Source: an uncultured Desulfobulbus sp.
Lineage (GTDB): Bacteria > Desulfobacterota > Desulfobulbia > Desulfobulbales > Desulfobulbaceae
Length of the DNA: 64,000 nucleotides
Reading direction: 5' to 3'
Assembly (NCBI RefSeq): GCF_963664075.1
Contig: NZ_OY760916.1
Span: 4,498,710-4,562,709, forward strand
Part shown: piece after piece, positions 4,604 through 43,912 of the stretch
Layout: every line of letters begins with the position of its first letter
Position numbering within the stretch: position 1 is the first letter of the stretch
Position numbers and translations under genes: made by a program
The notes under the pieces: generated by a model
The model's database searches: none
Seen by the model: only the letters and a program-made list of their open reading frames with translations
What the model was told of the DNA's origin: nothing

Positions 4604-5374
4604 TTACAGACCGTACTTTTTACTGTAGCCGCGGGGGGTGATCATCTTGTCCTTCCAGACAAAGGTCTGGGAGTTACCGATGATGACCGTAGTCTGCATG
4701 CCGATCTCTTCATTGAGCATGTTCTCAAGTGTGCTCAGGCGCACGGTCTCATGCTCGCGGGTGGCACCGCTGACGATACCCACCGGGGTCTGGGGATCGC
4801 GGCTTGCCAACATGATCTCACGGGCGCGGACGATTTGATCGGTGCGTTTTTTGGATTTGGGATTATAGATCACCACCACAAAATCTGACGGAGCGACCGC
4901 TTCCAGACGTTTTTCGATCAGCTCCCAGGGGGTCATCAGGTCTGAAAGGCTGATGGCGGCAAAGTCATGCATCAGGGGCGCGCCTAAAATGGCGGCACAG
5001 GAGTTGAGCGCGGCAATACCGGGGATGATATCGATGGGCACGGTGGCGTTCTCAGATTGCGCCAGCTCATAGACCAGCCCGGCCATGGCATAGATACCTG
5101 GGTCGCCGCCGCAGACCAGGGCCACGCGTTTACCGGATTCGGCCAGCTCCAGAGCCTTACGGCAACGGTCGATCTCCTGCATCATCGACGAGGAAAGGAT
5201 CTCGGTCTCAGGTCGGAGGCAGTCACGAACCAGATCGAGATAGGTGCGGTAGCCAACCACAATTTCTGCATCGGTCAATGCCTGCAGAGCTCGCGGAGCC
5301 ATAAGATCGTTTGCGCCGGGACCGAGTCCCACCACCATCAGAGAGCCGGTTGCACTGTCCTGTACTGTTGTCAT
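4604..5374 (-). CDS. cbiH: precorrin-3B / cobalt-factor III C17-methyltransferase
   Basis: A 256-residue SAM-dependent tetrapyrrole methylase that methylates C17 and contracts the corrin ring. Family motifs are clear: the N-terminal GLGPGANDLMAPRA, YRTYLDLV typical of CbiH/CobJ, the SAM loop CGGDPGIYAMAGL, IIPGIAALNSCAAILGAPL, and NPKSKKRTDQI. It is the last gene of the cobalamin operon and starts 3 nt after the cbiG stop. The length is normal for the family. Confidence 0.93.
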   Translation of the reverse strand: MTTVQDSATGSLMVVGLGPGANDLMAPRALQALTDAEIVVGYRTYLDLVRDCLRPETEILSSSMMQEIDRCRKALELAESGKRVALVCGGDPGIYAMAGLVYELAQSENATVPIDIIPGIAALNSCAAILGAPLMHDFAAISLSDLMTPWELIEKRLEAVAPSDFVVVIYNPKSKKRTDQIVRAREIMLASRDPQTPVGIVSGATREHETVRLSTLENMLNEEIGMQTTVIIGNSQTFVWKDKMITPRGYSKKYGL

Positions 5375-27781: not shown

Positions 27782-28013
27782 AGCTCTCTCCCCCTTTTCT
27801 CTTGGCTTGACGATCTCCTGATATTTAATTCGCAAAATTTTACAAATCTTTCGATACATTACCGAAAGACTAAAAAAAATACCGCTAAAAACTATAATGA
27901 GGGGGCAGCTTGAGACTTTTACCTGAATTCATCCAAAATCTTCGTCATATTTAAATGCGTACATTTTTCTTAAGTCTCATGACGATATTGATTTGGCACG
28001 AAGCGCCACATCA

Positions 28014-28113
28014 TCAGGCTGGAGCGAGGTCTCTAAAATGGGATTGGAGTACTGCCCGCAGTTCTTCAGTTATGGGCGCAGAGCGCTGGTTTTGAAAGTC
28101 AAAATGGACCAGG
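28014..28113 (-). pseudogene. 3' fragment of a thioesterase gene (duplicate of 43508-43912)
   Basis: The minus strand encodes the last 33 residues of a thioesterase, LVHFDFQNQRSAPITEELRA and on to FRDLAPA then stop, nearly identical to the end of the intact gene at 43508-43912. DNA similarity extends a little past the stop (from about 27989). No start or 5' part is present. It marks the left side of the accessory region. The rest of 27782-28306 shows nothing I can support. Confidence 0.9.
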
Positions 28114-30321: not shown

Positions 30322-30517
30322 TTCATGTAGTGCTCAGCAAGAAAAAGTAGCCCCAATATATAGCGGCAATCCTTTAAATCCCATAACTATCGGATGCACC
30401 CTTTGCGGGGTTCGTGTGTAGTCGGTTGTTGGACGAAGCCGCTGCGCGGCAGAATAAAAAACAGTGTATACTCGTGTAAGAGTTTAATTTTCAAACACTT
30501 ACAGCAAGGAGTATACT

Positions 30518-31033
30518 ATGAACAAAGCCGAAATTAAACGATTCGAGTCCCTCTATGAGCGCCACCTGCAAAAGCTTGCGCTACAAGGGAAAAGCGCCAA
30601 AACAATCGACGCCTATGGCAGGGCTGTGCGTCGGTTGGTCTCGTATTTTGATCGTTGCCCCGACAAGCGTTACGTCTGCTCTGGCGTGAACACCAGCACC
30701 CGAAGTTGTTGTTACCCAATTACCGTGGATCAATGGAAACAATCCGCCAGGCAACAAACCACATGAATAATGGCGGTGCTCAGCAGGCCATGAAGGCCGT
30801 TGTCACCTCCTGTGGAATTAAAAAAAGTCTCGATCTACAGCCTTCGTCACAGTTTCGCTACACACCTGCTTGAGTCCGGCCTGAGCCTGCGGCATATCCA
30901 GGCATTGCTTGGTCATGCCAGCCCCACAACCACAGCCCGTTACACCCACCTCACCGATGTTGCCGAACTGGACAGCCACTCAACGATCAATGCCTTGGTC
31001 AACTCGCTGCAACTCAACCCGGCAGGGAGGTGA
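30518..31033 (+). pseudogene. tyrosine recombinase of the IS91-like element, deleted copy
   Basis: The N-terminal 50 residues ([20 protein letters not shown] ... SYFDRCPDK) match copies 2 and 3, then about 390 bp are missing. The C-terminal catalytic part ([34 protein letters not shown]) remains, after an A7 run (30820-30826). Not expected to be active. Confidence 0.9.
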
Positions 31034-31035
31034 CC

Positions 31036-31758
31036 ATGGATCTAGCCACTCTTGTTCACCAGTATTACGATGCCTTCATGGCCAGGTTCGGCAAAACTCT
31101 TCTGCCTGATCAACGCAAAGCTCTTGATGCGATTCTACGTTGTCGGACGCCTGCCGCCGGAGAACTCTACGTGCAGTGCCCTGACTGTCAGCATGGTCAG
31201 TGGCGCCCACTATCCTGTGGCAACCGCCATTGCCCACGCTGCCAAAATCACCTGCCTGTACCCTATTTCATGGTGACCTTCACTTTGCCCTATCAGCTGC
31301 GTCCGTTGGCCTGTCATCACCAGAAAGCAAACAAAGTCCCGAAAAAATGGGTGGTCCACTGCGACCATATGGGCACCGGCGCACCTGCCTTGAAATACCT
31401 CGCAAGGTATTTATACCGAGGCGTAATCGGAGAAAAAAACATTATTGCCAACACCAATGGCGAAGTGACCTTCAGGTACCGGGACAGTTCTACAGGGGCA
31501 ATGCAGAAGAGGACGCTTAAGGGAGAAGAGTTTCTGCGTCTCCTTCTTCAACATGTCCTGCCAAACGGGTTCAGGCGGCTGCGCGAATATGGATTCCTGC
31601 ACGGGAATGCGAAAAAAATCCGTATGCTGGTCCAGTTGGTCCTGCACGTCGTTATCAGGCCGCAGCCGCCTCGCCCCCGACCAGTGTTTGCCTGTCCGCA
31701 CTGCGATCAAGCGATGCGTATTGTGTGTTTTAGAAATGACTACCGTCATCCCGGGTAA
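31036..31758 (+). pseudogene. IS91 Y2 transposase, deleted copy
   Basis: A 240-residue frame that keeps the zinc-finger part (VQCPDCQHGQWRPLSCGNRH) and the Y2 segment (KYLARYLYRGVIG) but lacks the HUH segment FHPHIHVL and the WIDKQREKL stretch because of in-frame deletions. It cannot be a working transposase. Confidence 0.9.
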
Positions 31759-32009
31759 CCTTTAAGCGAGGCGCCGCTTTACCGCCAAGAAACACACGGG
31801 AGGAAAACTCTTTTATGAGCATCGAGCCGCTTTTTAACGCCTGATACAGGCGAATGCATTCCTGCGTCTTGCGTTCAGCACTACCATCCTGGTAGCGCTT
31901 CCAGCATATTCCAGAGCAATATTTATTTCCTTTGTGAGACCGGGCTTGTCCAGCCCCGGATAAGATTGTGGTTCGTTCGTGCCTCACTCACACAATCTAT
32001 CCTTGTTCG

Positions 32010-32848
32010 TTAGGCTTCTTTGCCCATGAAAATTGCTACACGTTCAAGCCCTGCATCGCGGTGGACTTCACCTTTGTGAAATTCTTCGCTTTCAATCGTG
32101 GCTAGAAGGGTGCGACGCTGAGGATAACGAACAAATATAAAATGATCCCAATGCTCCGCTAGCATACAATCCTTGTGACCGCTGAATAAACAAATAGGCT
32201 TTCCACCATAAACTGGGTATGCCCCTCTTCTCAGCAATTCAAAACCTGCAACTTTGGAATAGCGATCATATGCTTCCTTTTCGCTAACATTTTTACTGTC
32301 TTCGCTAAAACCTCTGTACTCGGCGACCGGCTTATATTTATTTAGATTGTAAACAAATAGTGTCTCATCCAGATTTTGAGCTCTTGCTACTTCCATTTGC
32401 TTGTCATCTGGCCAAACAGCAATATTATCAGCGCTCCAATTAGCGCTAGGTGTACCTTTATCGGTAGTCCCTTTGAACAACCTAATAAGCCATGACATCC
32501 ATTTAACCATATGAAAAACAATCGATGGTTCCGGCTTAATTGCTAAGATGACATGCTCAGAACAAAACCGTTCTAGAGCACCACCGAAGGTGGACAAGGA
32601 ATTGAGCCCCTCTTGTAATGAGGAAAATTCGTCGATCAAAATTTCATCCACCAACATTCCTTCTCGAGCAACTGGGTCAGCCTTAACTCGATATAATCTT
32701 TTGCCACTAAAGCTATGCTCAGTTTCTTTCAGCCATTTCTTGTAGTCTTCAATATCTTTAACTTTCAGATGATAGACAATCGACTTGCCCCTTCCTCTTC
32801 TATGGCTTTAAGGCACGATTCTTTATCTAGTGTGGTAAAAATGTGCAT
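32010..32848 (-). pseudogene. cassette gene, DUF1330-like dimeric alpha/beta-barrel protein, frameshifted near its start
   Basis: The clean frame runs from 32010 to about 32790 and encodes two barrel-like halves (KVKDIEDYKKWLKETEHSFS ...; CMLAEHWDHFIFVRYPQRRT, RDAGLERVAIFMGKEA). Upstream, an ATG at 32848 opens MHIFTTLDKESCLKAIEEE in another frame; joining needs a one-base shift in a purine run (about 32785-32797). A shorter protein could start at 32657. The stop codon TAA lies inside the attC R'' GCCTAAC, as is usual for integron cassettes, and the cassette begins TTAGGC at 32870. Confidence 0.65.
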
Positions 32849-32870
32849 TGATTTTCCTGATGATGCCTAA

Positions 32871-32924
32871 TCGCGGAGCTGACGAAGTCAGCTCCGCGAT
32901 TCTTGGCGACGAAGTCGCCAAGAA
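32871..32924 (-). repeat. 54-bp gene-less double-hairpin unit (S4)
   Basis: The unit consists of two perfect hairpins, TTCTTGGCGAC-TTC-GTCGCCAAGAA and TCGCGGAGCTGAC-TTC with its complement. On the minus strand it follows the G of an attC site and ends A before the next cassette start TTAGGC. It is the short form of the 157-bp units S1-S3. Confidence 0.85.
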
Positions 32925-32984
32925 CACCAAGGTCACGGGGCCTGTAGCGCCAGCGGAAGGCTCCCGTGCACCTACTGGTTGTGC
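32925..32984 (-). other. attC recombination site (intact)
   Basis: On the minus strand R'' GCACAAC (32978-32984) is complementary to the first bases of its own cassette, TTGTGC at 33918. Between them GGTGCACGGG and CCCCGTGACC form imperfect inner arms. The site ends G/TTCTTGG at 32925/32924. Length 60 bp; the gene stop TAG falls inside it. Confidence 0.85.
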
Positions 32985-33898
32985 TTTTTTTTCATTTTGA
33001 ATGACTTGGCTATCGTTTGAAAAATAGGAATAAATGTGCTTTTCTCTGTGGATGGTGTTATTCCCTGAATCACGCAGTATCCCGCTGTGTCAAACAAAAG
33101 AACTTGATAGATTGTAAGAGGGGTAGCTGTATCATCACCCTCTCCTTTGGCTGTAGTCGCATAGCCTGATAGATCGCCAATTTTGATAGGAGTGCTCTGA
33201 TCAACACTGATATTATTAACTGTGGCGGTTTTCATTACACGGCTTTCAGAAAATGCTTTTTTATTTGATATAGCTAAATCCTCTGATGCGGATAGCCCTA
33301 AAATCATGAACGGAATATTTTCATCCTTCACTGGGAAACGTCCGCCTGGTGCCAGAATCATATTCTGCCCAAAGACCTTGGCCATCTTTAGTGGAGGCAA
33401 TGGTGTTACACTGAAGGTGAGAGCATCAGCAGGATCGGTTTCTTTACCGAAGGTGGCAGAGAGAACTGCTTCTTTAAGAAGTATCCCTTGCTTTGCCATA
33501 ACTTCAGGGTACGTAGCAACAATGAGGGTTGTAGCCCCGGAACGGTCTACGGCCACCATCCATTTTTTGAAGAGAGTACCATAAGCAGTCTGTTCGACGT
33601 GAAGCAACATTCCGGAAAGGCCATTAATTTTGACATGGGTCTTGCTCAGAAGCGAAATACCTTGGGCTCGCATTCGATTATGATCAGCGAATCCTGCTGT
33701 TACTTCAACGTATGGACCAGGGATCTCAGAAACCATGATGGAGGAACCGGTGGCTTCATTCATGAACCCTGGGAAACGGTCGGCTTCGACGAAACCATTT
33801 GGGGGAGTTATATTCACCGAAGTGCCTGGGACCTGTCCAGCCATTGCATTTGAAGCAATTAAACTTAGAAATACAAAATACTTAATAAATCTCAGCAT
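32972..33898 (-). CDS. cassette gene: exported protein of unknown function
   Basis: A 308-residue protein with a signal peptide (residues 1-20, LRFIKYFVFLSLIASNAMAG). The rest is soluble with alternating beta/alpha character (VNITPPNGFVEADRFPGFMN, MAKVFGQNMILAPGGRF, IPFMILGLSASEDLAISNKK). No family is recognised. The start is ATG at 33898, 20 nt into the cassette (TTGTGCAGAAGGAAATTATT), with AAGGAA as ribosome site. The stop lies within its attC. Typical single-gene integron cassette. Confidence 0.8.
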   Translation of the reverse strand: MLRFIKYFVFLSLIASNAMAGQVPGTSVNITPPNGFVEADRFPGFMNEATGSSIMVSEIPGPYVEVTAGFADHNRMRAQGISLLSKTHVKINGLSGMLLHVEQTAYGTLFKKWMVAVDRSGATTLIVATYPEVMAKQGILLKEAVLSATFGKETDPADALTFSVTPLPPLKMAKVFGQNMILAPGGRFPVKDENIPFMILGLSASEDLAISNKKAFSESRVMKTATVNNISVDQSTPIKIGDLSGYATTAKGEGDDTATPLTIYQVLLFDTAGYCVIQGITPSTEKSTFIPIFQTIAKSFKMKKKHNQ

Positions 33899-33918
33899 AA
33901 TAATTTCCTTCTGCACAA

Positions 33919-34075
33919 TCGCGGTGCTGACCAGCGCCGTGTGCAGCGCAAGCAAACGTAGCTTGGTTGTGATGTGCACGGTGTCTGGTCAAGCTCCTTG
34001 TTCCGGCGCAAGGCGCCGGGGCAAGGAGCTTGACGAAGTCAGCACCGCGATTCTTGGCGACGAAGTCGCCAAGAA
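33919..34075 (-). repeat. 157-bp gene-less multi-hairpin unit (S3)
   Basis: The unit starts TTCTTGGCGACTTCGTCGCC and ends CACCGCGA on the minus strand. It has the same outer hairpins as S4, but the second is opened by 103 bp carrying nested stems (GTCAAGCTCCTTG with its complement; CCGGCGCC-TTG-CGCCGG; CCGTGCA ... TGCACACGG). It is close to S1 and S2, with several compensatory changes (GGTGC for GGAGC on both arms). Confidence 0.85.
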
Positions 34076-34128
34076 CGATTAAGGTCACCGGCGCGCGTTA
34101 GCGCGTCCGGTGCACCGCCTTGTTGGAC
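34076..34128 (-). other. attC-like site at the left end of IS copy 2
   Basis: On the minus strand GTCCAAC (from the element end, 34122-34128) is followed by AAGGCGGTGCACCGG, a GCGC stem, CCGGTGACCTTAATC and G/TT at 34076/34075. The inner arms GGTGCACCGG and CCGGTGACC have attC form with an extrahelical base. Confidence 0.8.
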
Positions 34129-34139
34129 GAAGCCGCTGC

Positions 34140-34214
34140 GCGGCAGAATAAAAACCAGTGTATACTCGTGTAAGAGTTTAATTTTCAAACACTTACAGCA
34201 AGGAGTATACTATG
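34140..34214 (+). promoter_or_regulatory. palindromic leader of the recombinase gene in the element
   Basis: GTATACTC and GTAAG recur inverted as CTTAC and GAGTATAC, the second arm overlapping the AAGGAG ribosome site and touching the ATG at 34212. The structure may be an operator or an RNA hairpin that hides the ribosome site. The same sequence is present in copies 1 and 3. Confidence 0.6.
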
Positions 34215-35116
34215 AACAAAGCCGAAATTAAACGATTCGAGTCCCTCTATGAACGCCACCTGCAAAAGCTTGCGCTACAAGGGAAAAGCGCCAAAACAAT
34301 AGATGCTTATGGCCGAGCTGTGCGTCGACTGGTCTCATATTTCGATTGTTGCCCCGACAAGCTCAGCGTGCAAGAGCTGGAAGAGTACTTTGCCAAATTG
34401 GTCAAGGGGTACTCTTGGAGCACAGTCAAGCTGGACCGGCTCGGTCTCATGTTTTTCTGGAAACATGTTCTGGAGACGGATTGGCAGTGGCTCAACATCG
34501 TCAAAGCACCTGTCGTTAAAACCATTCCGGATATCCTGACCCGCGAAGAGATCGGCAGGATCATTCATGGCTGCCGGGAGCTCCGCTATCGCGTCTTTCT
34601 CTTCACCACCTATTCCATGGGGCTTCGCCTGGAAGAGGCTTTGTCTCTTCAGGTCGGTGATATCGATACCGGCCATATGAAGGTCCATATCCGTCGCGGT
34701 AAGGGGCATAAAGATCGTCTTGTCCCGTTGCCGAACCGCACCTTGGAAGCGTTACGCCTGCTCTGGCGTGAACACCAGCACCCGAAGTTGTTGTTTCCCA
34801 ATTACCGGGGATCAATGGAAACGATCCGACAGGCGACAAACCACATGAATAATGGCGGTGCTCAGCAGGCCATGAAGGCCGTTGTCACCTCCTGTGGAAT
34901 TAAAAAAAAGTCTCGATCCACAGCCTTCGCCACAGCTTCGCTACCCACCTGCTCGAGTCCGGCCTGAGCCTAAGGCATATCCAGGCTCTGCTGGGGCATG
35001 CCAGCCCCACGACTACTGCCCGTTACACTCATCTCACCGATGTTGCCGAACTGGATAGCCAGGCAACGATCAATGCCTTGGTCAACTCACTGCAACTCAA
35101 TCCGGCAGGGAGATAA
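34212..35116 (+). CDS. tyrosine recombinase of the IS91-like element, interrupted at an A8 run
   Basis: The first frame (34212-34967, 251 residues) gives a core-binding domain ([20 protein letters not shown]) and the first catalytic arginine ([10 protein letters not shown]) and lysine ([10 protein letters not shown]). At A8 (34902-34909) the frame is lost. The other frame continues with [26 protein letters not shown] and the tyrosine in TTARYTHL to a stop at 35116. Six or nine A residues would restore one protein, so slippage on the A-run could make the full enzyme; otherwise it is dead. It lacks obvious IntI-specific features. The transposase follows 2 nt later. Confidence 0.8.
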
Positions 35117-35118
35117 CT

Positions 35119-36168
35119 ATGGACCTGGCCACTCTTGTTCACCAATATTATGATGTCTTCATGGCGCGGTTCGGCAAAACCATCCTGCCAGAACAACGCA
35201 AGGCCCTTGATGCGATTCTCCGTTGCCGAACGCCTGCTTCCGGGGAACTCTACGTGCAGTGCCCTGACTGCCATCATGGCCAATGGCGGCCTCTCTCCTG
35301 TGGTAACCGCCATTGCCCGCGCTGCCAAAATCACCTGACCAGTCTCTGGATCGACAAACAACGGGAAAAGCTCCTGCCTGTGCCCTATTTCATGGTGACC
35401 TTTACCTTGCCCTATCAGCTGCGTTCGTTGGCTTATCGTCACCAGGGAGAGGTCTATTCGCTCATGTTCCGGTGTGCTGCCGAAGTCCTGCGTTCATTCG
35501 CCCGCAATGCAAAATCTTTGGGCGCCGAGATCGGCATGACCATGGTCCTGCACACCCATTCAAGGAGATTGGAATTTCACCCGCATATCCACGTCCTGAT
35601 CCCTGGAGGTGGCATTGACCAACAGGCTCGGGTTTGGAAAAAGCTATCGGGGAAATATCTCTTCAACGGTTTTGCCTTGGCCAAAGCCTTTCGCGGTAAG
35701 TTCCTGGCCGGAGCAGATGCTATCGGCTTGCGGATCACAGACAAAGTTCCGAAAAAATGGGTTGTCCACTGCGACCATATGGGCACCGGCGCACCGGCCT
35801 TAAAATACCTCGCAAGGTATTTGTACCGAGGCGTGATTGGAGAAAAAAACATCATTGCCAATACCAACGGCGAAGTAACCTTTAGGTACCGGGACAGCGC
35901 TACCGGGACAATGCAGAAGAGGACGCTTAGGGGAGAAGAGTTTCTGCGTCTGCTTCTTCAACATGTCCTGCCAAACGGGTTTAGGCGGCTGCGCGAATAT
36001 GGATTTCTGCACGGGAATGCGAAAAAAATCCGTATGCTGGTCCAGTTGGTCCTGCACGTCGTTATCAGGCCGCAGCCGCCTCGCCCCCGACCAGTGTTTG
36101 CCTGCCCTCACTGCAATCAACCGATGCGCATTGTGTGCTTTAGAAATTCTTACCGCCAACCCGGGTAA
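35119..36168 (+). CDS. IS91-family Y2 (HUH) transposase, copy 2
   Basis: A 349-residue rolling-circle transposase. The N-terminal zinc-binding domain has VQCPDCHHGQWRPLSCGNRH then CPRCQNH. The HUH motif is FHPHIHVLIPGG (about residues 155-166) and the two-tyrosine segment is ALKYLARYLYRGVIG. The C-terminus has a second CxxC pair (FACPHCNQPM). The recombinase stop lies 2 nt before its ATG. The gene appears intact and matches copy 3 closely. Confidence 0.93.
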   Translation: MDLATLVHQYYDVFMARFGKTILPEQRKALDAILRCRTPASGELYVQCPDCHHGQWRPLSCGNRHCPRCQNHLTSLWIDKQREKLLPVPYFMVTFTLPYQLRSLAYRHQGEVYSLMFRCAAEVLRSFARNAKSLGAEIGMTMVLHTHSRRLEFHPHIHVLIPGGGIDQQARVWKKLSGKYLFNGFALAKAFRGKFLAGADAIGLRITDKVPKKWVVHCDHMGTGAPALKYLARYLYRGVIGEKNIIANTNGEVTFRYRDSATGTMQKRTLRGEEFLRLLLQHVLPNGFRRLREYGFLHGNAKKIRMLVQLVLHVVIRPQPPRPRPVFACPHCNQPMRIVCFRNSYRQPG

Positions 36169-36357
36169 CCTTTAAGCGAGACGCCGCTTCACCGTCAAGA
36201 AGACCACGGGAGGAAAACTCTTTTATGAGCAGCGAGCCGCTTTTTAACGCCTGATACAGGCGAATGCATTTCTACGTCCTGCGTTCAGCACTACCATTCT
36301 GGTAGTGCTTCCAGTATATTCCAGAGCAATATTTATTTCCTTTGAGAGGCCGGGCTT

Positions 36358-36425
36358 GTCCAACCCCGGATAAGATTGTGGTTCGTTCGTGCCTCACTCA
36401 CACAATCTATCCTTATTCGTTATAC
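36358..36425 (-). other. composite attC-like site at the right end of IS copy 2
   Basis: On the minus strand the R'' GTATAAC (36419-36425) belongs to the neighbouring cassette, whose start is TTATAC at 36852. The remaining 61 bp come from the element: GAATAAGGATAGATTGTG ... CACAATCTTATCC, GGG, then G/TTGGAC. The stem has one extrahelical A. Equivalent 68-bp sites lie at 31948-32015 and 40708-40775. Confidence 0.8.
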
Positions 36426-36440
36426 TATTTTGTCATATAT

Positions 36441-36815
36441 TTAGTACTTTACAGATATATTGAAATAACTAAAGAATTCTTCTCCAAAAGAAAACGCATA
36501 TATTATTGAAGGCAACAAACATGCAAAAGAAAGATTTGATATGAATTTACTAAATTGTGAGCTTATAAGACCAATAAGTAAATATGGCATAAGAAATGTG
36601 TATATTGTTTTAAATGCAAAATACATATTGTCTACCTCTTGATCAGCAAATGATCTGTAAAAAAAATACTGCAATATCAGAGGAGTAATTAAAGAAATGA
36701 GTACTATTACTATCCATTTCCAAATTGGGAGATTTAGATGGAACAATTTGTAAAATCCCATTACCCCAAGTAAAGGGTGAGCCAAAATTCCCAGTAGCAT
36801 AGCTAAAGAAAACAT
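36441..36815 (-). CDS. cassette gene: small multi-pass membrane protein
   Basis: A 124-residue, very hydrophobic protein with about four membrane segments (FSLAMLLGILAHPLLGVMGF, WIVIVLISLITPLILQYFF, TFLMPYLLIGLISSQFS and a last one). No family is recognised. AT-rich, as many cassettes are. The cassette begins TTATACGTAAAAACTAC with the ATG 37 nt further on, and ends in an attC whose R'' is GTATAAC, the exact complement of its start. Confidence 0.7.
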   Translation of the reverse strand: MFSLAMLLGILAHPLLGVMGFYKLFHLNLPIWKWIVIVLISLITPLILQYFFYRSFADQEVDNMYFAFKTIYTFLMPYLLIGLISSQFSKFISNLSFACLLPSIIYAFSFGEEFFSYFNISVKY

Positions 36816-36852
36816 GAAGTTACCTTTGTGAAATTGTAGTTTTTACGTATAA

Positions 36853-36932
36853 CGCCAGCCATAACCGGACTCAAAATGCGAAGCGAAGCGCAGCGCAGCT
36901 TTTTGGGGTCCGAGTTTATGACATTGTTAGCC
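36853..36932 (-). other. attC recombination site (intact, 80 bp)
   Basis: On the minus strand R'' GGCTAAC (36926-36932), outer arms CATAAACTCGGAC and GTCCGGTTATG (imperfect, with extrahelical bases), a GCTTCGCTTCGC-rich tip and G/TTATAC at 36853/36852. The stop TAA of the upstream TIR-like gene lies inside R''. Confidence 0.85.
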
Positions 36933-37639
36933 CTCGGATACATCATTTGAATCTTCCTCTTCCATCTCGCGCGCAATATCTCTAGCAAACTCCTTTATTG
37001 CGCGAGATGGACCTTTGCCCTCCAATATTTCTTCAATGATTTCTGGGGGGAGACCTTGTTCAAGAAGATTTCGAATTTCTCTCCGTAGCGCCCCAGGGCT
37101 CATAAAACGGTGCTTTCTTTCACGTTCCATATCTATAACATCACTTGATCGTTCCATTGTTCTTACTCTTCGATCAAGAGAGCGAATGGTGCGCAACACT
37201 TCAGACAAAATACTTTCCTCCGAACGAGCAGGAATGTGCTCACCAGCAGGGTTATCAGTCAACGCTAACTGGAATTTCTCTTCAAACTGAGGCCAGTAGG
37301 TATCGAATACTTGCTCAAGAACCTTTTCTCGAAGCGCGTGCTCACCCAATGAAGAATTGAGCGTGCGAACCAACTCATATACGCCATCCCTATTTGGCAT
37401 CGTATGATTGAATTGAGCTAGAGGATTTCCCACATCAGTTGGTTCGAGATCGATCAGGAAAGTGCATACTCTTGCACTTGACAGTCCTTTCGCGAGCGCT
37501 CCTGACTCAAATAGTATCCAGGGCTTCTCTTGATTGTCTTTAGAAAGACAAACAATCCCTATCTTGGTGTCTTTTAGTTGATCAGATATTTCCGAGAACC
37601 AAAGAGAGCCTCTGTCTATATCTTTGCGGTGATATTTCC
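36927..37639 (-). pseudogene. TIR-like domain protein, 5'-truncated cassette gene
   Basis: The open frame starts at the edge of a palindromic repeat at about 37640 and has no start there. It encodes the second half of a TIR-like fold (SEISDQLKDTKIGIVCLSKD, KPWILFESGALAKGLSSARV, CTFLIDLEPTDVGNPLAQFN) and a helical, charged C-terminal part. An internal GTG at 37433 could give a 168-residue product without most of the TIR core. TIR proteins of this kind often act in phage defence, but this copy is probably inactive. Confidence 0.7.
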
Positions 37640-38229
37640 GGGGACATAATACCTATTCTGAGTTTTCTCTTAAAATCAGTATTATGTCCCCTGATATTTA
37701 TAAAAGTGTAAAGGCTTTTTGCATTTGTATTGTGCTTGATAATGTTGAGTTCAGTTTCAGAGCATAATTCCTCAAAGCGAGCAACACTTTCTTTGTGTTT
37801 GTCGGTAAATCTATATCGCAGGCTATCTGATTCCATGTACAGAAGAAATGACAGCGGAATTACCCATACTGCATGCAAGGCCCCGATGCCAATTTGATTT
37901 AGAAATAAGAGAAATGATCCCGCATTTTTTTTACGCTTATTAACAAAGAATGAAAATATGACAAAAGTTCCCCCCGCGCACAATGGCAGGATGAGAGTGG
38001 TAGCAAGGCGCTTAATTAATGCGGAGAAGTCTGTACTGTTTCTAAAAGGAAAAAGTTGTATGGCCCACCATGTTGTAGCCGCACAAATAATGATGCCTGC
38101 AATTATTCCAGCTATTTTGATTGTGGAGTGTTTTTCACGTTTTATTGCAAATTGCTTGCAAAGAAATAAGGCAATGAAAGCTGCAATCAGAAAGGACGGG
38201 ATGTACCCTATTGCGAATGCGATACCCAA
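37582..38229 (-). CDS. cassette gene: membrane protein with altered C-terminus
   Basis: A 215-residue frame with four to five membrane segments (GYIPSFLIAAFIALFLCKQF, AGIIAGIIICAATTWWAIQL, LILPLCAGGTFVIFSFFV, IGALHAVWVIPLSFLLYM) and a cytosolic tail. The start is TTG at 38229 with AAGGA upstream, 26 nt into a cassette that begins TTATAT. The last 35 residues are encoded by the palindromic repeat at 37640-37691 and out-of-frame TIR-gene sequence, so the original C-terminus and attC are lost. Function unknown. Confidence 0.6.
   Translation of the reverse strand: MGIAFAIGYIPSFLIAAFIALFLCKQFAIKREKHSTIKIAGIIAGIIICAATTWWAIQLFPFRNSTDFSALIKRLATTLILPLCAGGTFVIFSFFVNKRKKNAGSFLLFLNQIGIGALHAVWVIPLSFLLYMESDSLRYRFTDKHKESVARFEELCSETELNIIKHNTNAKSLYTFINIRGHNTDFKRKLRIGIMSPEISPQRYRQRLSLVLGNI
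37640..37691. repeat. GGGGACATAATAC palindrome
   Basis: A 52-bp unit with perfect 13-bp inverted ends (GGGGACATAATAC and GTATTATGTCCCC). It sits exactly at the junction of two truncated cassette genes, so its arrival, or a deletion ending at it, fused two cassettes and removed an attC. Confidence 0.8.
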
Positions 38230-38255
38230 GGCAACAGTTCCTTTTTAAAATATAA

Positions 38256-38412
38256 TCGCGGAGCTGACCAGCGCCGTGTGCCGCGCAAGCAAGCGCAGCT
38301 TGATTGTGTGGTGCGCGGTGTCTGGTCAAGCTCCTTGTTCTGGCGCGAAGCGACAGGGCAAGGAGATTGACGAAGTCAGCTCCGCGATTCTTGGCGACGA
38401 AGTCGCCAAGAA
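38256..38412 (-). repeat. 157-bp gene-less multi-hairpin unit (S2)
   Basis: Same structure and length as S1 and S3, beginning TTCTTGGCGACTTCGTCGCC on the minus strand and ending CTCCGCGA, immediately before the cassette start TTATAT. Confidence 0.85.
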
Positions 38413-38478
38413 CGCCAAGCTCACCGGTAAATTGGGAGCGTAGCGAGTAATTTATCCGCGTGCAGCTTTTTGTTGGAC
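38413..38478 (-). other. attC-like site at the left end of IS copy 3
   Basis: On the minus strand GTCCAAC (element end), AAAAAGCTGCACGCGGATAA, a short tip, AATTTACCGGTGAGCTTGGC and G/TT at 38413/38412. The arms GCTGCACGCGGATAAATT and AATTTACCGGTGAGC pair with extrahelical bases. Its inner sequence differs from the equivalent site of copy 2, so it derives from a different attC. Confidence 0.8.
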
Positions 38479-38561
38479 GAAGCCGCTGCGCGGCAGAATA
38501 AAAACCAGTGTATACTCGTGTAAGAGTTTAATTTTCAAACACTTACAGCAAGGAGTATACT

Positions 38562-39466
38562 ATGAACAAAGCCGAAATTAAACGATTCGAGTCCCTCTAT
38601 GAACGCCACCTGCAAAAGCTTGCGCTACAAGGGAAAAGCGCCAAAACAATAGATGCTTATGGCCGAGCTGTGCGTCGACTGGTCTCATATTTCGATTGTT
38701 GCCCCGACAAGCTCAGCGTGCAAGAGCTGGAAGAGTACTTTGCCAAATTGGTCAAGGGGTACTCTTGGAGCACAGTCAAGCTGGACCGGCTCGGTCTCAT
38801 GTTTTTCTGGAAACATGTTCTGGAGACGGATTGGCAGTGGCTCAACATCGTCAAAGCACCTGTCGTTAAAACCATTCCGGATATCCTGACCCGCGAAGAG
38901 ATCGGCAGGATCATTCATGGCTGCCGGGAGCTCCGCTATCGCGTCTTTCTCTTCACCACCTATTCCATGGGGCTTCGCCTGGAAGAGGCTTTGTCTCTTC
39001 AGGTCGGTGATATCGATACCGGCCATATGAAGGTCCATATCCGTCGCGGTAAGGGGCATAAAGATCGTCTTGTCCCGTTGCCGAACCGCACCTTGGAAGC
39101 GTTACGCCTGCTCTGGCGTGAACACCAGCACCCGAAGTTGTTGTTTCCCAATTACCGGGGATCAATGGAAACGATCCGACAGGCGACAAACCACATGAAT
39201 AATGGCGGTGCTCAGCAGGCCATGAAGGCCGTTGTCACCTCCTGTGGAATTAAAAAAAAGTCTCGATCCACAGCCTTCGCCACAGCTTCGCTACCCACCT
39301 GCTCGAGTCCGGCCTGAGCCTAAGGCATATCCAGGCTCTGCTGGGGCATGCCAGCCCCACGACTACTGCCCGTTACACTCATCTCACCGATGTTGCCGAA
39401 CTGGATAGCCAGGCAACGATCAATGCCTTGGTCAACTCACTGCAACTCAATCCGGCAGGGAGATAA
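38562..39466 (+). CDS. tyrosine recombinase of the IS91-like element, copy 3, interrupted at an A8 run
   Basis: Identical in layout to copy 2: a 251-residue first frame (38562-39317) with [10 protein letters not shown] and [10 protein letters not shown], an A8 run at 39252-39259, then the catalytic H-x-x-R, H and Y in the next frame up to the stop at 39466. That both full-length copies share the same A8 argues for recent copying of one version. Confidence 0.8.
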
Positions 39467-39468
39467 CT

Positions 39469-40518
39469 ATGGACCTGGCCACTCTTGTTCACCAATATTA
39501 TGATGTCTTCATGGCGCGGTTCGGCAAAACCATCCTGCCAGAACAACGCAAGGCCCTTGATGCGATTCTCCGTTGCCGAACGCCTGCTTCCGGGGAACTC
39601 TACGTGCAGTGCCCTGACTGCCATCATGGCCAATGGCGGCCTCTCTCCTGTGGTAACCGCCATTGCCCGCGCTGCCAAAATCACCTGACCAGTCTCTGGA
39701 TCGACAAACAACGGGAAAAGCTCCTGCCTGTGCCCTATTTCATGGTGACCTTTACCTTGCCCTATCAGCTGCGTTCGTTGGCTTATCGTTACCAGGGAGA
39801 GGTCTATTCGCTCATGTTCCGGTGTGCTGCCGAAGTCCTGCGTTCATTCGCCCGCAATGCAAAATCTTTGGGCGCCGAGATCGGCATGACCATGGTCCTG
39901 CACACCCATTCAAGGAGATTGGAATTTCACCCGCATATCCACGTCCTGATCCCTGGAGGTGGCATTGACCAACAGGCTCGGGTTTGGAAAAAGCTATCGG
40001 GGAAATATCTCTTCAACGGTTTTGCCTTGGCCAAAGCCTTTCGCGGTAAGTTCCTGGCCGGAGCAGATGCTATCGGCTTGCGGATCACAGACAAAGTTCC
40101 GAAAAAATGGGTTGTCCACTGCGACCATATGGGCACCGGCGCACCGGCCTTAAAATACCTCGCAAGGTATTTGTACCGAGGCGTGATTGGAGAAAAAAAC
40201 ATCATTGCCAATACCAACGGCGAAGTAACCTTTAGGTACCGGGACAGCGCTACCGGGACAATGCAGAAGAGGACGCTTAGGGGAGAAGAGTTTCTGCGTC
40301 TGCTTCTTCAACATGTCTTGCCAAACGGGTTTAGGCGGCTGCGCGAATATGGATTTCTGCACGGGAATGCCAAGAAAATCCGTATGCTGGTCCAGTTGGT
40401 CCTGCACGTCGTTATCAGGCCGCAGCCGCCTCGCCCCCGACCAGTGTTTGCCTGCCCTCACTGCAATCAACCGATGCGCATTGTGTGCTTTAGAAATTCT
40501 TACCGCCAACCCGGGTAA
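39469..40518 (+). CDS. IS91-family Y2 (HUH) transposase, copy 3
   Basis: A 349-residue transposase, essentially identical to copy 2: zinc-binding N-terminus, HUH motif FHPHIHVL, Y2 motif YLARYLYRG. Intact reading frame, 2 nt after the recombinase. Confidence 0.93.
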   Translation: MDLATLVHQYYDVFMARFGKTILPEQRKALDAILRCRTPASGELYVQCPDCHHGQWRPLSCGNRHCPRCQNHLTSLWIDKQREKLLPVPYFMVTFTLPYQLRSLAYRYQGEVYSLMFRCAAEVLRSFARNAKSLGAEIGMTMVLHTHSRRLEFHPHIHVLIPGGGIDQQARVWKKLSGKYLFNGFALAKAFRGKFLAGADAIGLRITDKVPKKWVVHCDHMGTGAPALKYLARYLYRGVIGEKNIIANTNGEVTFRYRDSATGTMQKRTLRGEEFLRLLLQHVLPNGFRRLREYGFLHGNAKKIRMLVQLVLHVVIRPQPPRPRPVFACPHCNQPMRIVCFRNSYRQPG

Positions 40519-40793
40519 CCTTTAAGCGAGACGCCGCTTCACCGTCAAGAAGACCACGGGAGGAAAACTCTTTTATGAGCAGCGAGCCGCTTTTTAACGC
40601 CAGATACAGGCGAATGCATTCCTACGTCCTGCGTTCAGCACTACCATTCTGGTAGTGCTTCCAGTATATTCCAGAGCAATATTTATTTCCTTTGAGAGGC
40701 CGGGCTTGTCCAACCCCGGATAAGATTGTGGTTCGTTCGTGCCTCACTCACACAATCTATCCTTATTCGTTAGGCATAGTCGGGGCAAGCTCC

Positions 40794-42965
40794 CTATTTT
40801 AAGCAGCACTTCTTGTGTTTTTTCCCACTACCACATGGGCACCTTTCATTACGCCCAATCTTCTTAGATTTTCTAGTTACTGTGTTAAAATTAACCTTAT
40901 TTTTTCCTTTCAATGACTGAGGCTTAGGAAGACCCTTAGTCGCCTTGTCCATTTCATCAGACTGTTCCCATTTAAACTCTTTATTAACACCAAATCTCAA
41001 CCTTTGGGAACTGGTGCCAATGCACACACCGAACCATTGGTCAGCCTTCTGATCATATTTCCTGACCTCACAATGACGATCTAACCTCTTCGCAGCCTCG
41101 GCATCTGAGTCATTGTTACAGTGAATAGTAAGCCCCGTACTTCCTTCACTTATGCCAAGTGTTAAATCATGATGTTTACCATCTTTTTTCCCCAATTCAA
41201 CTAGCTTCGATATCCCGTCATTAATCATTTCGATTGTGTCGCCACTAAGTGTCAATAGCATAAAACCAAAATCTACAGTGCCTGAATGATCACGCAATTC
41301 AATGTCTTTAACCAATCTGTCGAAGTGCGTTCCTTCGTACTTTGTTAATATCCCATCTGGAGTCTCACTACCAGGAATGCCATCTCGTCTCGTCAGCATT
41401 GCAAGATCTAAGTCAGCGCAAATGTCATCTCCTAGCTGCATCATTGTGTATTCACCATCCATCCAGAGATTTTGTTTTAGATGGTATGACAAGATCGTTA
41501 GCTCGTGAGTGGATAATATTTTATCGCCATACAGCGTTCTTCTGTTGACGTAGCTTAGGAAGTGCAAAGGAGAACTTAGCATCTCTGTTACAACATCCAA
41601 GAAGAAAACATCCATCACAAATGCTGGTTTGATAAAATCAGTAGGATTTTGCTTGAGGAACTGCCTGGCTTGAAATGACAAAGCGGGATAATGATCAGAT
41701 ACCACGCAGAAGGGGTAGATTTCTTTAAATTCTCTTCTGATGGTTATTTCATTACCCTGTTCGTCTAAGAGCTTATAGTTATTGTCAGATAAATAATTTG
41801 AACATGAAAAGGCTTGGTCATATGCATCTTGAACGGCTTTTTTAAAGTCATCTTTTAGAGATAAGTCGTTCCCTTTGCGGGCAGCTATAGTCAGTTTCTT
41901 TGACTTTGCCTGCAATACTATTGCTCTATTTGCAAACACTACAAGAACGTCTATTTCACCAGCTTTATTGCGCTTCGCATCTACAATATCAACATTCTGA
42001 AAAACTCGTTTTTCTCCGAAGACTCGCACAAGCCTTCTGTTTGAAAATTCTTCTGTAAATTCGCCGCGATGTCCCATCGCAATACTTCTGTACGCCGCAT
42101 CCGAATTGAACCAAAAGAATGGCGTTTCGTATAACGCCTCTACCAAGCTGTAATTCTGAAACAGTAAGTATTTATCTTCTTCAAGCTTTATTATTGGATA
42201 GGCATTTATTGGGTTAAAGTCATCTAAGGATTTGAAGTCGTTTTGGTCAATTGGCGAAACAAAGGATTCAATAAAACTCCTACAAGCCTCAACATCCAAT
42301 CCGGACTTATCGGCTATTTCTCTTAAGGAAAAGGTATAAGCTTCAAAGAAAGTCCATTCGTTTGGATGTTTATCTGCTAAACCAACAAGAGCATCATTAA
42401 TCTTGTCGTTCTGTAACACCTGAATTGCTGATACAACAGACATGGCTTGCTCAAGTGAATAGCCTTTGTTTTCAATTAGCCATGCGTTATCTTTTCTATA
42501 CTTATCTTCAGCTAGATCCCTATACTGAAAGTGGTATGCTGATTCACCCCCATAAAAAATTGATTCTCTTAGTACAGCGCCAGAATTGAAAGGGTTAAAG
42601 TCATCATCACCAATTTTATTTGGGTCAAATATCTCTTGCATTGGCGGCATCATGGAATGATGCAACTCCTGAAGTAAAGCATCTGTTCCACTAATATATT
42701 CTTGCATCACTTCTGGCGAAGGTATTGTTGCATCTATATCCTTTTTACTTGCCAGTCCAATTAGTGTAGATATTTCTGTTCTTACCAAACGCTCCATTGA
42801 GAATTGTTGCAATACATCTTCAGGCTTCACTTCATCAGCGTATCTGATGGTGTTATCTCGAAAACAGAAATATGCGATTGCGTGGATGTAACCGGGAGAT
42901 TGGCAAAGAACTTCTAGTTCTTTAAATACTTCGCTTTCCTTTCTGGCTATTTTATTTTCCGGCAT
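40794..42965 (-). CDS. cassette gene: large PD-(D/E)XK-like protein with SEC-C zinc motif
   Basis: A 723-residue protein, unusually large for a cassette gene. Residues about 315-350 read FQNVDIVDAKRNKAGEIDVL then VVFANRAIVLQAKSKKLT; the E-I-D ... Q-A-K-S-K spacing is that of a PD-(D/E)XK nuclease core (NERD/Mrr-like). The C-terminus is a SEC-C zinc motif (NERCPCGSGKKHKKCCLK). The rest is unassigned and mostly helical. The combination suggests a nucleic-acid-cutting defence protein; this is inference. The cassette starts TTAGGC at 42993 and its stop is followed by an attC with R'' GCCTAAC. Confidence 0.7.
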   Translation of the reverse strand: MPENKIARKESEVFKELEVLCQSPGYIHAIAYFCFRDNTIRYADEVKPEDVLQQFSMERLVRTEISTLIGLASKKDIDATIPSPEVMQEYISGTDALLQELHHSMMPPMQEIFDPNKIGDDDFNPFNSGAVLRESIFYGGESAYHFQYRDLAEDKYRKDNAWLIENKGYSLEQAMSVVSAIQVLQNDKINDALVGLADKHPNEWTFFEAYTFSLREIADKSGLDVEACRSFIESFVSPIDQNDFKSLDDFNPINAYPIIKLEEDKYLLFQNYSLVEALYETPFFWFNSDAAYRSIAMGHRGEFTEEFSNRRLVRVFGEKRVFQNVDIVDAKRNKAGEIDVLVVFANRAIVLQAKSKKLTIAARKGNDLSLKDDFKKAVQDAYDQAFSCSNYLSDNNYKLLDEQGNEITIRREFKEIYPFCVVSDHYPALSFQARQFLKQNPTDFIKPAFVMDVFFLDVVTEMLSSPLHFLSYVNRRTLYGDKILSTHELTILSYHLKQNLWMDGEYTMMQLGDDICADLDLAMLTRRDGIPGSETPDGILTKYEGTHFDRLVKDIELRDHSGTVDFGFMLLTLSGDTIEMINDGISKLVELGKKDGKHHDLTLGISEGSTGLTIHCNNDSDAEAAKRLDRHCEVRKYDQKADQWFGVCIGTSSQRLRFGVNKEFKWEQSDEMDKATKGLPKPQSLKGKNKVNFNTVTRKSKKIGRNERCPCGSGKKHKKCCLK

Positions 42966-42993: not shown

Positions 42994-43150
42994 TCGCGGA
43001 GCTGACCAGCGCCGTGTGCCGCGCAAGCAAGCGCAGCTTGATTGTGTGGTGCGCGGTGTCTGGTCAAGCTCCTTGTTCTGGCGCGAAGCGACAGGGCAAG
43101 GAGATTGACGAAGTCAGCTCCGCGATTCTTGGCGACGAAGTCGCCAAGAA
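42994..43150 (-). repeat. 157-bp gene-less multi-hairpin unit (S1)
   Basis: Nearly identical to S2. It is preceded by CTTG/TTCTTGG on the minus strand and ends GCGA before the cassette start TTAGGC. It is the outermost recognisable unit of the array. Confidence 0.85.
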
Positions 43151-43507
43151 CAAGTAATTATCTAGTTTCTCGGTAATACCCCTTCCCTCCGCCAAACGGT
43201 CTGGGGCTATATGCAAATGGAAGAGATGTCTTTCTACCAGATTTTCTCAGGTGTACCTGGTTCCCTCAATAAAAACAAATAATTAAAACTTACTCTTGGG
43301 CTAGCTTTAAACAACAATGGGCTAGACCATTCTATTTGTTTGCTCGATAACAAACATCTGAAGCATGTTATAAAGTTTCTCTTTATCTACATATTCGTCC
43401 TTGATGAGTGGCTGGCTCTTCCCAGAGGAGTCAAATTCCTTCCAATTTATCTATTTTCCATACAGGCTCTCGGCTTTTTATGATTCGGCAGCAGAGCCGC
43501 CCCATCA
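43151..43507. other. 357-bp spacer between cassette array and thioesterase
   Basis: AT-rich sequence with no supportable gene. An integron integrase or a primary attI site would be expected near here if this were the array's head; I find no integrase frame. Confidence 0.6.
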
Positions 43508-43912
43508 TCAGGCAGGGGCCAGGTCTCTGAAATGGGATTGGAGTATTGCCCGCAGCTCATCGGTAATTGGCACAGAGCGCTGGTTCTGAAAATCAAAATG
43601 GACCAGGGTGGTTTTTCCTTTGCAACAGAGCCGATCCTTTTGATGCGCTTCCTGGTAGACCTCAAAGCTTGAAGAGCCGATTCTGGAAATCCAGGTTTTG
43701 ATGAGGACTTCGTGTTCGAGGTAGATTTGGGAGAGGAAGTCCACTTCAAAGCGGGCCAGAATGAGGTTCCAGTTTTTGAAGGTGAACTCGGGGTTGAACA
43801 GCTTGTAGACGGGATTGCGTGCCTGTTCGAACCAGCGGGGGAGAATGGTGTTGTTGACATGGCCAAGCCCATCAACGTCGCCAAATTTGGGAGTAATCGT
43901 TATTGCATACAT
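43508..43912 (-). CDS. acyl-CoA thioesterase, hotdog fold (YbgC/4HBT type)
   Basis: A 134-residue hotdog thioesterase. FGDVDGLGHVNNTILPRWFE is the active-site motif with the catalytic aspartate, and LARFEVDFLSQIYLEHEVLI and TLVHFDFQNQRSVPITDELR are typical strands. The cobamide cluster downstream is unrelated. Its 3' end is duplicated as a fragment at 28014-28113, making this gene the right edge of the accessory region. Substrate not predictable. Confidence 0.9.
   Translation of the reverse strand: MYAITITPKFGDVDGLGHVNNTILPRWFEQARNPVYKLFNPEFTFKNWNLILARFEVDFLSQIYLEHEVLIKTWISRIGSSSFEVYQEAHQKDRLCCKGKTTLVHFDFQNQRSVPITDELRAILQSHFRDLAPA

Follow-up and report, generated by a model that had tools for sequence, protein, structure and literature searches.

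Three copies of an IS91-family element in a cassette array

The window analysed here is a 64,000-nt stretch of the genome of an uncultured Desulfobulbus sp. (4.78 Mb, one contig). Between 30 and 43 kb it carries an array of gene cassettes into which three copies of an element with an IS91-family transposase are inserted. The end positions bear out the original prediction that the copies share one orientation and that each lies directly before the complement of the R'' box of the neighbouring cassette, the open reading frames (ORFs) of the adjoining cassettes being on the strand opposite to all three (Table 1). Each copy starts with GTTGGACGAAGCCGC, which was found in the window on the plus strand only. 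The neighbouring cassettes had been predicted to start with this complement behind a G; the complement is there, and the preceding base is A, not G, in two of the three. Copies 2 and 3 encode a tyrosine recombinase upstream of the transposase, and copy 1 is a relic, the pieces of which correspond to 1–241, 626–1324 and 1617–2304 of a 2304-base query built from copy 3. The remainder of an interrupted attC site, predicted on the left of copies 2 and 3, was found at both; at copy 2 it folds as DNA with -16.2 kcal/mol (z -3.7). At the left flank of copy 1 (fragment L019) there is no recognisable attC (score 5, threshold 6.25). Since no integron integrase above the cut-off could be identified in the window, the array is a CALIN-like cluster (a cluster of attC sites lacking an integron integrase); the two intI genes of the genome are at 1.37 and 2.92 Mb (1371652 and 2921141).

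The same type of junction recurs beyond the window. The genome holds 11 full-length copies plus fragments (22 matches in all); by rounded identity, copy 3 and six others are at 100% and four at 95%, and several are clustered at ~1.37–1.41 Mb, near the first of the two integrase genes. Judged by the flanks, five full-length copies lie in attC: L006 and L009 (p<=0.01), L001 and L005 (p=0.039) and L010 (low score), of which L001, L005 and L010 were called partly by eye. The other six (L002, L003, L004, L007, L008 and L011, scores 3 to 5.25) lie outside attC. Three fragments retain a left junction, namely L014 (score 7), L013 (score 4, called attC by eye) and the relic in the window.

Table 1. Element copies, their parts and the adjoining cassette features in the window
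Feature	Positions	Strand	Remarks
Copy 1	30428..32008	+	internally deleted relic, 1581 bp, inner box GTCCAGC
Copy 2	34122..36418	+	2297 bp
Copy 3	38472..40768	+	2297 bp
Target of copy 1	32009..32015	+	GTTAGGC, complement of R'' of cassette 32010-32657
Target of copy 2	36419..36425	+	GTTATAC, complement of R'' of cassette 36441-36815
Target of copy 3	40769..40775	+	GTTAGGC, complement of R'' (GCCTAAC) of cassette 40794-42965
Cassette ORF adjoining copy 1	32010..32657	-
Cassette ORF adjoining copy 2	36441..36815	-
Cassette ORF adjoining copy 3	40794..42965	-	SEC-C and NERD domains
Remainder of attC split by copy 2	34070..34128	-	R'' now from the element (GTCCAAC); attC score 9/9
Remainder of attC split by copy 3	38407..38478	-	score 6 in strict test, p=0.039; recognised by eye
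IS91 family transposase, copy 2	35119..36168	+
IS91 family HUH transposase, copy 3	39469..40518	+	Zn_Tnp_IS91, Y2_Tnp; HPHIH at 154
Tyrosine recombinase, N-terminal part and start of catalytic domain	38562..39317	+	Phage_int_SAM_4, Phage_integrase
A8 run splitting the recombinase frame before the HxLRH box, copy 3	39252..39259	+
A-run at the recombinase frame split, copy 2	34902..34909
Left-terminal heptamer, copy 3	38472..38478	+	GTTGGAC, complement GTCCAAC replaces R''; hairpin GCCGCTGCGCGGC follows
Inner right-end box, copy 3	40708..40714	+	GTCCAAC, complementary to the left-terminal heptamer
Right end, copy 3	40715..40768	+	stem with a single bulged A, followed by TTATTC; presumed ori end

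Insertion at one attC position in independent genomes

Relatives were taken from a genome scan (the best 80 of 384 encoding loci) and come mainly from Desulfobacterota and Gammaproteobacteria, the closest named ones from Desulfobulbus rhabdoformis (98 and 97%). One distant relative turned up in the viral collection and two among phages. The elements fall into a clade I and a second clade (clade II). Left junctions were tested for a fixed attC geometry, scored out of 9, with the 99th percentile of 1188 control GTT sites as the limit. By this standard, 26 of the 69 testable left junctions (2/11 in the genome of the window, 24/58 in others) exceed the control, counting both L100 and L102, which share a left flank and are probably one place. 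The mirror geometry was passed by two of the 69 (L006 and L138), both of which pass the R'' geometry as well or better; because the mirror geometry is nearly never passed, insertion is at the R'' side and opposite to the cassette. A deduplicated, slightly wider set gave 25/81 (clade I 24/70, second clade 1/11), with 2/81 for the mirror.

As a check, the geometry was applied to an empty aadA1 site and to the four cassette attCs (cassette strand) of an annotated E. coli class 1 integron; all scored 9/9. The same integron stretch gave four weaker hits at 6.5–7.25 (two mirror attCs, one in aac(6')-Ib and one element right end). The test is insensitive to the attCs of the host itself, with one hit in the window, two in 60 kb at the 1.37-Mb integron and none in 20 kb at the second intI. 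A general attC stem score was tried and dropped: it put 18/69 junctions over the genomic 99th percentile, and its first control held attCs of the same loci. The fixed geometry was adopted because the stem score had little power and a contaminated control.

At the right junction, the abutting ORF runs counter to the element in 16 of 19 cases of the attC class and 18 of 30 others, and in the same direction in 2 and 3, respectively. Since an opposite ORF abuts many of the low-scoring junctions too, many of these may be decayed attCs. On sequence evidence, then, the element is a recurrent user of one fixed attC position in independent genomes, and attC is its preferred, not its obligatory, insertion site.

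A natural empty site in a class 1 integron

The boundaries of the element can be read most directly in the E. coli IncC plasmid RCS41_p (NZ_LT985243.1), where a relative (L139) lies between qacEdelta1 and aadA1, in the aadA1 attC of a class 1 integron. On the left, matches to other records stop at 2987, after the GTT (2985–2987) of the left heptamer (2870 records; all four listed have qacEdelta1 and aadA1 under the match). On the right, where six of 971 records were listed, the right GTT is at 5321 and matches start two bases earlier, at 5319. NZ_CP022735.1 has an aadA1 attC without any insertion, equal in length (59 nt). Because the uninterrupted aadA1 records fix the ends, the inner box and the final four bases of the left heptamer can be assigned to the element; the two junctions have GTT in common, and nothing else is duplicated. 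The predicted ownership of GTTGGAC and GTCCAAC by the element, the common GTT excepted, is therefore shown for this relative; covariation of the two (below) suggests it more generally.

At megablast sensitivity, a search of 72,556 plasmid records found the RCS41_p element at full length in one, and a search of 5,426 complete E. coli genomes found it in none. The right end of this element (5273–5327) reaches 7.25 in the attC test; programs that predict attC may thus call the ends of such elements attC sites.

Target preference inside and outside attC

The target motif can be written (Y)AAC|AA-N5-T-N2-A. Among 15 insertions outside attC (six in the genome of the window, eight in a genome of the same order, G145, and one in D. 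rhabdoformis), AA at +1,+2 was found in 8 (background 7%), T at +8 in 12 (25%) and A at +11 in 11 (24%). When 26 attC R'' sites were ranked against 1844 background AAC sites by the motif from these non-attC sites alone, 15 fell within the top 1% and 22 within the top 5%. With 30 non-attC sites, a set in which one G145 place counts twice (L053 = L210; once in the 15-site set), the median of 33 attC R'' sites ranked at 0.16%; the R' counterparts, found for 15 of the 33, had a median of 12% and AA in none of the 15. The intrinsic target motif fits the R''-L'' half of attC almost ideally. Since the motif ranks R'' far above R', sequence preference alone can, to judge from these rankings, explain why R'' is hit rather than R', and with it much of the attC preference. 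Background sites that score as well as the median attC site occur at ~44 per Mb.

Genome G145 (99% complete) has 13 copies with a full transposase domain and no intI over the cut-off, partial matches reaching up to 147 bits only. None of its eight readable left junctions is attC-like (scores 2.25 to 5.5), and the AAC core is present in all 11 readable right junctions, two of which (L212 and L214) share one right flank. Because copies are present there without intI over the cut-off and outside attC, the element seems able to move without intact IntI and without attC. The predicted targeting of attC thus stands as recurrent insertion at R'' in independent genomes; its exclusivity does not, given G145 and the six of 11 copies outside attC in the genome of the window. 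L212 and L214 lie on different contigs and have different left flanks; a rearrangement or a one-ended event may lie behind this.

Transposase and accessory recombinase

The transposase scores 380.9 bits against NF033538 (cut-off 125), has the PF04986 and PF14319 domains, and carries candidate catalytic tyrosines at 230, 234 and 236, in YLARYLY, besides the HUH motif listed in Table 1. The ISCR_clade_Ia model was not matched (26.6 bits, cut-off 925). Insertion is at a short AAC core with no target duplication beyond the 3-bp GTT ambiguity, as seen in the aadA1 relative and at the right junctions of G145. By its predicted proteins, the element belongs to the IS91-family insertion sequences and carries a tyrosine recombinase as an accessory enzyme.

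This recombinase is a relative of Xer and IntI and remains under the cut-off of every NCBIfam model that it matched. By TIGR02249 (cut-off 265) it is not an integron integrase: the intact relative in L139 reaches 154.4 bits and the N-terminal part in the window 100.6. The nearest solved structures by sequence are XerC-like 4a8e, IntI4 2a3v and XerA 5hxy. Alignment offsets against PRK15417 are ~+7 for the N part (window) and +46 for the C part (L139), and the offset against IntI4 2a3v is +36, so that the protein seems ~40 residues shorter than IntI before the last part of the catalytic domain.

Of the 58 distinct clade I copies in which the recombinase frame can be read, 43 have it split immediately upstream of the HxLRH box (39 at an A7–A9 run), 13 are intact and 2 lie between; another 35 are unreadable. 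The second clade has 10 intact and 6 unreadable frames. As the split recurs in elements with transposases only 46% identical (G145), it suggests programmed slippage rather than decay. The window type needs a shift of -1 and the G145 type, with frames derived by hand, seems to need +1; with such different shifts, transcriptional slippage is a candidate for making the recombinase whole.

Architecture of the ends

The comparison of ends covered recombinase-carrying elements, as distinct from canonical IS91 elements without a recombinase. Both junctions of copies 2 and 3 had been predicted to read as complete attC sites. They do read RYYYAAC-hairpin-GTTRRRY; in the strict attC geometry, the right ends of the two copies score 4.25, below the threshold of 6.25. 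The predicted inner box GTCCAAC is present in these copies and replaced by GTCCAGC in copy 1. On both strands of copies 2 and 3 and on the minus strand of copy 1, a right-end stem with an extrahelical A does fold, though weakly (-6.7 kcal/mol, z -0.8 to -2.0).

Across the family, the left heptamer is perfectly complementary to the inner right box in 57 of 68 distinct two-ended copies (GTTGGAC/GTCCAAC 28, GTTGAAC/GTTCAAC 24, GTTCAAG/CTTGAAC 5). Among 52 representatives, 43 pairs are perfect, the permutation mean being 20.3, and none of 20000 permutations reached 43. A separate reading of the ends without any rule on the box recovered the same boxes; at L137 the two readings took different elements, one of clade I and one of clade II. 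A further pair, GTTGCAC/GTGCAAC in L048/L153, was seen by eye and stands outside these counts. On the transposase tree there are at least 9 changes of the left heptamer and 17 of the inner box.

A perfect right-end stem is present in 69 of 95 distinct right ends, 49 with one bulged base in the 5' arm and 20 without a bulge. The commonest position of the bulge is 9 from the box (25 cases), the site of the extrahelical base in the attC geometry used. Half of the clade I right ends (42/84) satisfy the strict attC geometry when read in the element's polarity, and 2/84 its mirror; in the second clade, none of 10 satisfies the strict geometry. We considered the inner box as a guide of target choice and dropped this idea, since the target positions do not follow the box. 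At four loci (L059, L065, L075 and L125) the last bases of the element are tandemly repeated at the right end, possibly through aborted or repeated strand transfer; as a hint at rolling-circle or one-ended events this is only suggestive.

Other repeats and a second element

Palindromic modules (GATTCTTGGCGACGAAGTCGCCAAGAAC and relatives) are repeated in the window at 32880–32939, 34031–34090, 38368–38427 and 43106–43165. They resemble mini-cassettes without an ORF, and three of the four are inside a longer 161-nt repeat. A 110-nt piece (87%) at a thioesterase gene, at 28004–28113 and 43498–43607, flanks the cassette array on both sides. Elsewhere in the genome, at ~1381900–1384250 (L143, L144), there is a second, different element of the IS91-plus-recombinase type, with an apparently intact recombinase (286-aa frame). 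It starts with ATTGAACTAAACCGC directly after an attC-like inverted repeat and is a possible case of cassette orientation. Copy L008 starts just past its transposase.

Possible mechanism and alternatives

The best explanation, to which we give a probability of about two in three, is that this insertion sequence of the IS91 family, equipped with an accessory tyrosine recombinase, has a target specificity matched to the R''-L'' half of attC. The element joins the strand reading RYYYAAC at AAC, within the three-base GTT/AAC ambiguity, and the clade I heptamer (GTTGGAC or GTTGAAC) puts a new RYYYAAC box at the R'' position. Because this heptamer supplies RYYYAAC in place of R'', the remainder of the interrupted attC keeps its form, and the element seems able to live in cassette arrays without destroying attC sites.

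In such a scheme, the HUH transposase would nick after (Y)AAC at the border between right end and target, one strand would be displaced, and termination would follow after the left-end heptamer, as in the ori/ter scheme of IS91. Where the ends meet, the inner box, the hairpin, TTATTC and the terminal heptamer could fold into one R-box hairpin, again RYYYAAC-hairpin-GTTRRRY. The transposase may recognise this folded hairpin, and attC, having the same architecture, would be a look-alike of the junction. The recombinase, which in most clade I copies would be whole only by slippage at the A-run, could act on the junction, perhaps resolving circles or dimers.

Several points weigh against this explanation. 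That the HUH enzyme, rather than the recombinase, does the cutting is a presumption from sequence, and plain sequence preference may account for most of the preference for attC. The attC geometry was set after the junctions had been viewed, from good ones among them, and is thus partly post hoc. The end patterns required heptamers beginning with GTT and boxes ending in AAC, which leaves four of seven positions free, and 11 of the 68 copies pair imperfectly (GTTGAAC/GTCCAAC 8, GTTCAAG/CATGAAC 2, GTTGAAC/GTGCAAC 1). Only four starred independent pairs on the tree differ in the heptamer, the box changing in the same way in 3.3 and the opposite way in 0; seven differ in the box, the heptamer changing in the same way in 2.7, the opposite way in 0 and staying unchanged in 4.3. 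With so few independent pairs, the tree-based covariation is not significant. In addition, 26 of the 95 right ends have no perfect stem, the second-clade box CTTGAAC does not match RYYYAAC, and the target positions, as noted, do not follow the inner box.

Alternatively, the element may be of an ordinary IS91 type with a short (Y)AAC target, for which attC would be an incidental hit, since attC contains YAACAA and cassettes tolerate insertions. Insertions outside attC do have the same AAC core, the attC R'' sites rank high on a motif derived from non-attC sites alone, and insertions into genes are generally selected against. Yet the motif extends past AAC even outside attC (T+8, A+11), 26 of 69 junctions pass as attC while ~44 background sites per Mb score as well as the median attC site, and the clade I heptamer retains the RYYYAAC form; we regard this alternative as possible but rather improbable. 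Integration by the tyrosine recombinase of the element itself, with the HUH enzyme only copying the element out, is unlikely. Here a folded, attC-like single-stranded circle junction would be recombined into a simple R''+L'' site, as IntI does with attC. The recombinase is an Xer/IntI relative present across the family, the target motif spans R'' and L'' like a two-box recombinase site, the circle junction would hold a perfect R box in the 57 of 68 copies with complementary ends, and the GTT-ambiguous boundaries would suit a G^TT crossover equally well. Against these stand the split frame in 43 of 58 clade I copies, including elements with many near-identical copies, the apparent lack of the ~40 IntI residues, and an AAC core that matches the target rules of IS91-type elements.

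Far less probable still is insertion of the element by the host integron integrase as an ordinary, if odd, gene cassette. The RYYYAAC-hairpin-GTTRRRY ends, the strict attC geometry found in the element's own polarity at half of the clade I right ends (42/84), the intI that adjoins the cluster of copies at 1.37 Mb and the second element near 1.382 Mb, possibly in cassette orientation, could be read in this way. We rejected it on orientation and on G145: the element lies at R'' and points against the cassette, none of the junctions fits the mirror geometry better than the R'' geometry, and G145 has 13 copies, uses non-attC sites and has no intI over the cut-off. The right ends of copies 2 and 3 also fail the strict geometry. 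For the same reasons of orientation, the original prediction that the element turns itself into a cassette that IntI could mobilise is unsupported, both mirror passes (L006 and L138) being junctions that also pass the R'' geometry. By the polarity rules of IntI, an element that lies opposite to the cassette would be expected to undergo inversion rather than excision. What stands is a real, recurrent phenomenon within the known IS91 family.

A more far-reaching version of the favoured explanation would make these HUH transposons a third, independently evolved class of attC specialists, with their junction hairpin and attC as convergent substrates. The element would recognise attC as a copy of its own circle junction and restore R'', and the slippage-expressed Xer-like recombinase would use the same hairpin. 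We consider this doubtful; if true, it would be a natural bridge between single-strand transposition and integron-type recombination.

Relation to known systems

Compared with integron cassettes and IntI, the element has similar RYYYAAC-hairpin-GTTRRRY ends and a recombinase of the same superfamily, but it lies in the opposite orientation, at R'' and not R', and its recombinase is below the IntI cut-off and apparently ~40 residues shorter. Other insertion sequences, the IS1111-attC group of Post and Hall (2008), reportedly also target attC. That group is described as having an unrelated DEDD transposase with a seekRNA/bridge RNA, whereas the present element is of the HUH type, with presumed single-strand chemistry.

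Within its own family, the element shares with IS91/IS801 a G+C-rich left-end hairpin and a target core that resembles the left end, as described for IS91 and IS801 (PMC3189936). There, the target tetranucleotides of IS801 (GAAC, GGAC, CAAG and CGAC) include its own left end GAAC, and one-ended products start at such tetranucleotides. The lack of a target duplication beyond the 3-bp ambiguity and a transposase over the NF033538 cut-off are further likenesses. The element differs in its accessory tyrosine recombinase, in a longer target motif that fits attC R''-L'', and in a terminal heptamer that replaces R'' and pairs with the inner right-end box.

IS91-like elements beside attC have been remarked on in passing, namely ISShvi3 of Shewanella (PMC9229058) and ISCR28 (PMC12772301). 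In the portions of these reports that were available, the remarks come without a target rule, end covariation or survey, and the comparison with the present element is by description only; the first states that no insertion sequence interrupting attC was detected. A description of an attC-specific IS91 group was not found in the literature searched, which did not include ISfinder, TnPedia and most subscription journals, so that a prior description is possible. Such elements would account for the scattered remarks on IS91-like genes beside attC, and they provide a testable target rule.

Group IIC-attC introns (S.ma.I2 and relatives) insert at attC and are known, according to PMC9229058 and PMC8876359, for an orientation opposite to the cassettes; these are retroelements and have no genes in common with the element. 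To the IS1111-type and group IIC invaders of attC the present family adds an HUH-type branch, mainly in Desulfobacterota and Gammaproteobacteria, one member of which has entered a class 1 integron carried by a resistance plasmid of E. coli. This raises the question of whether the same folded DNA is recognised by HUH enzymes and by integron integrases.

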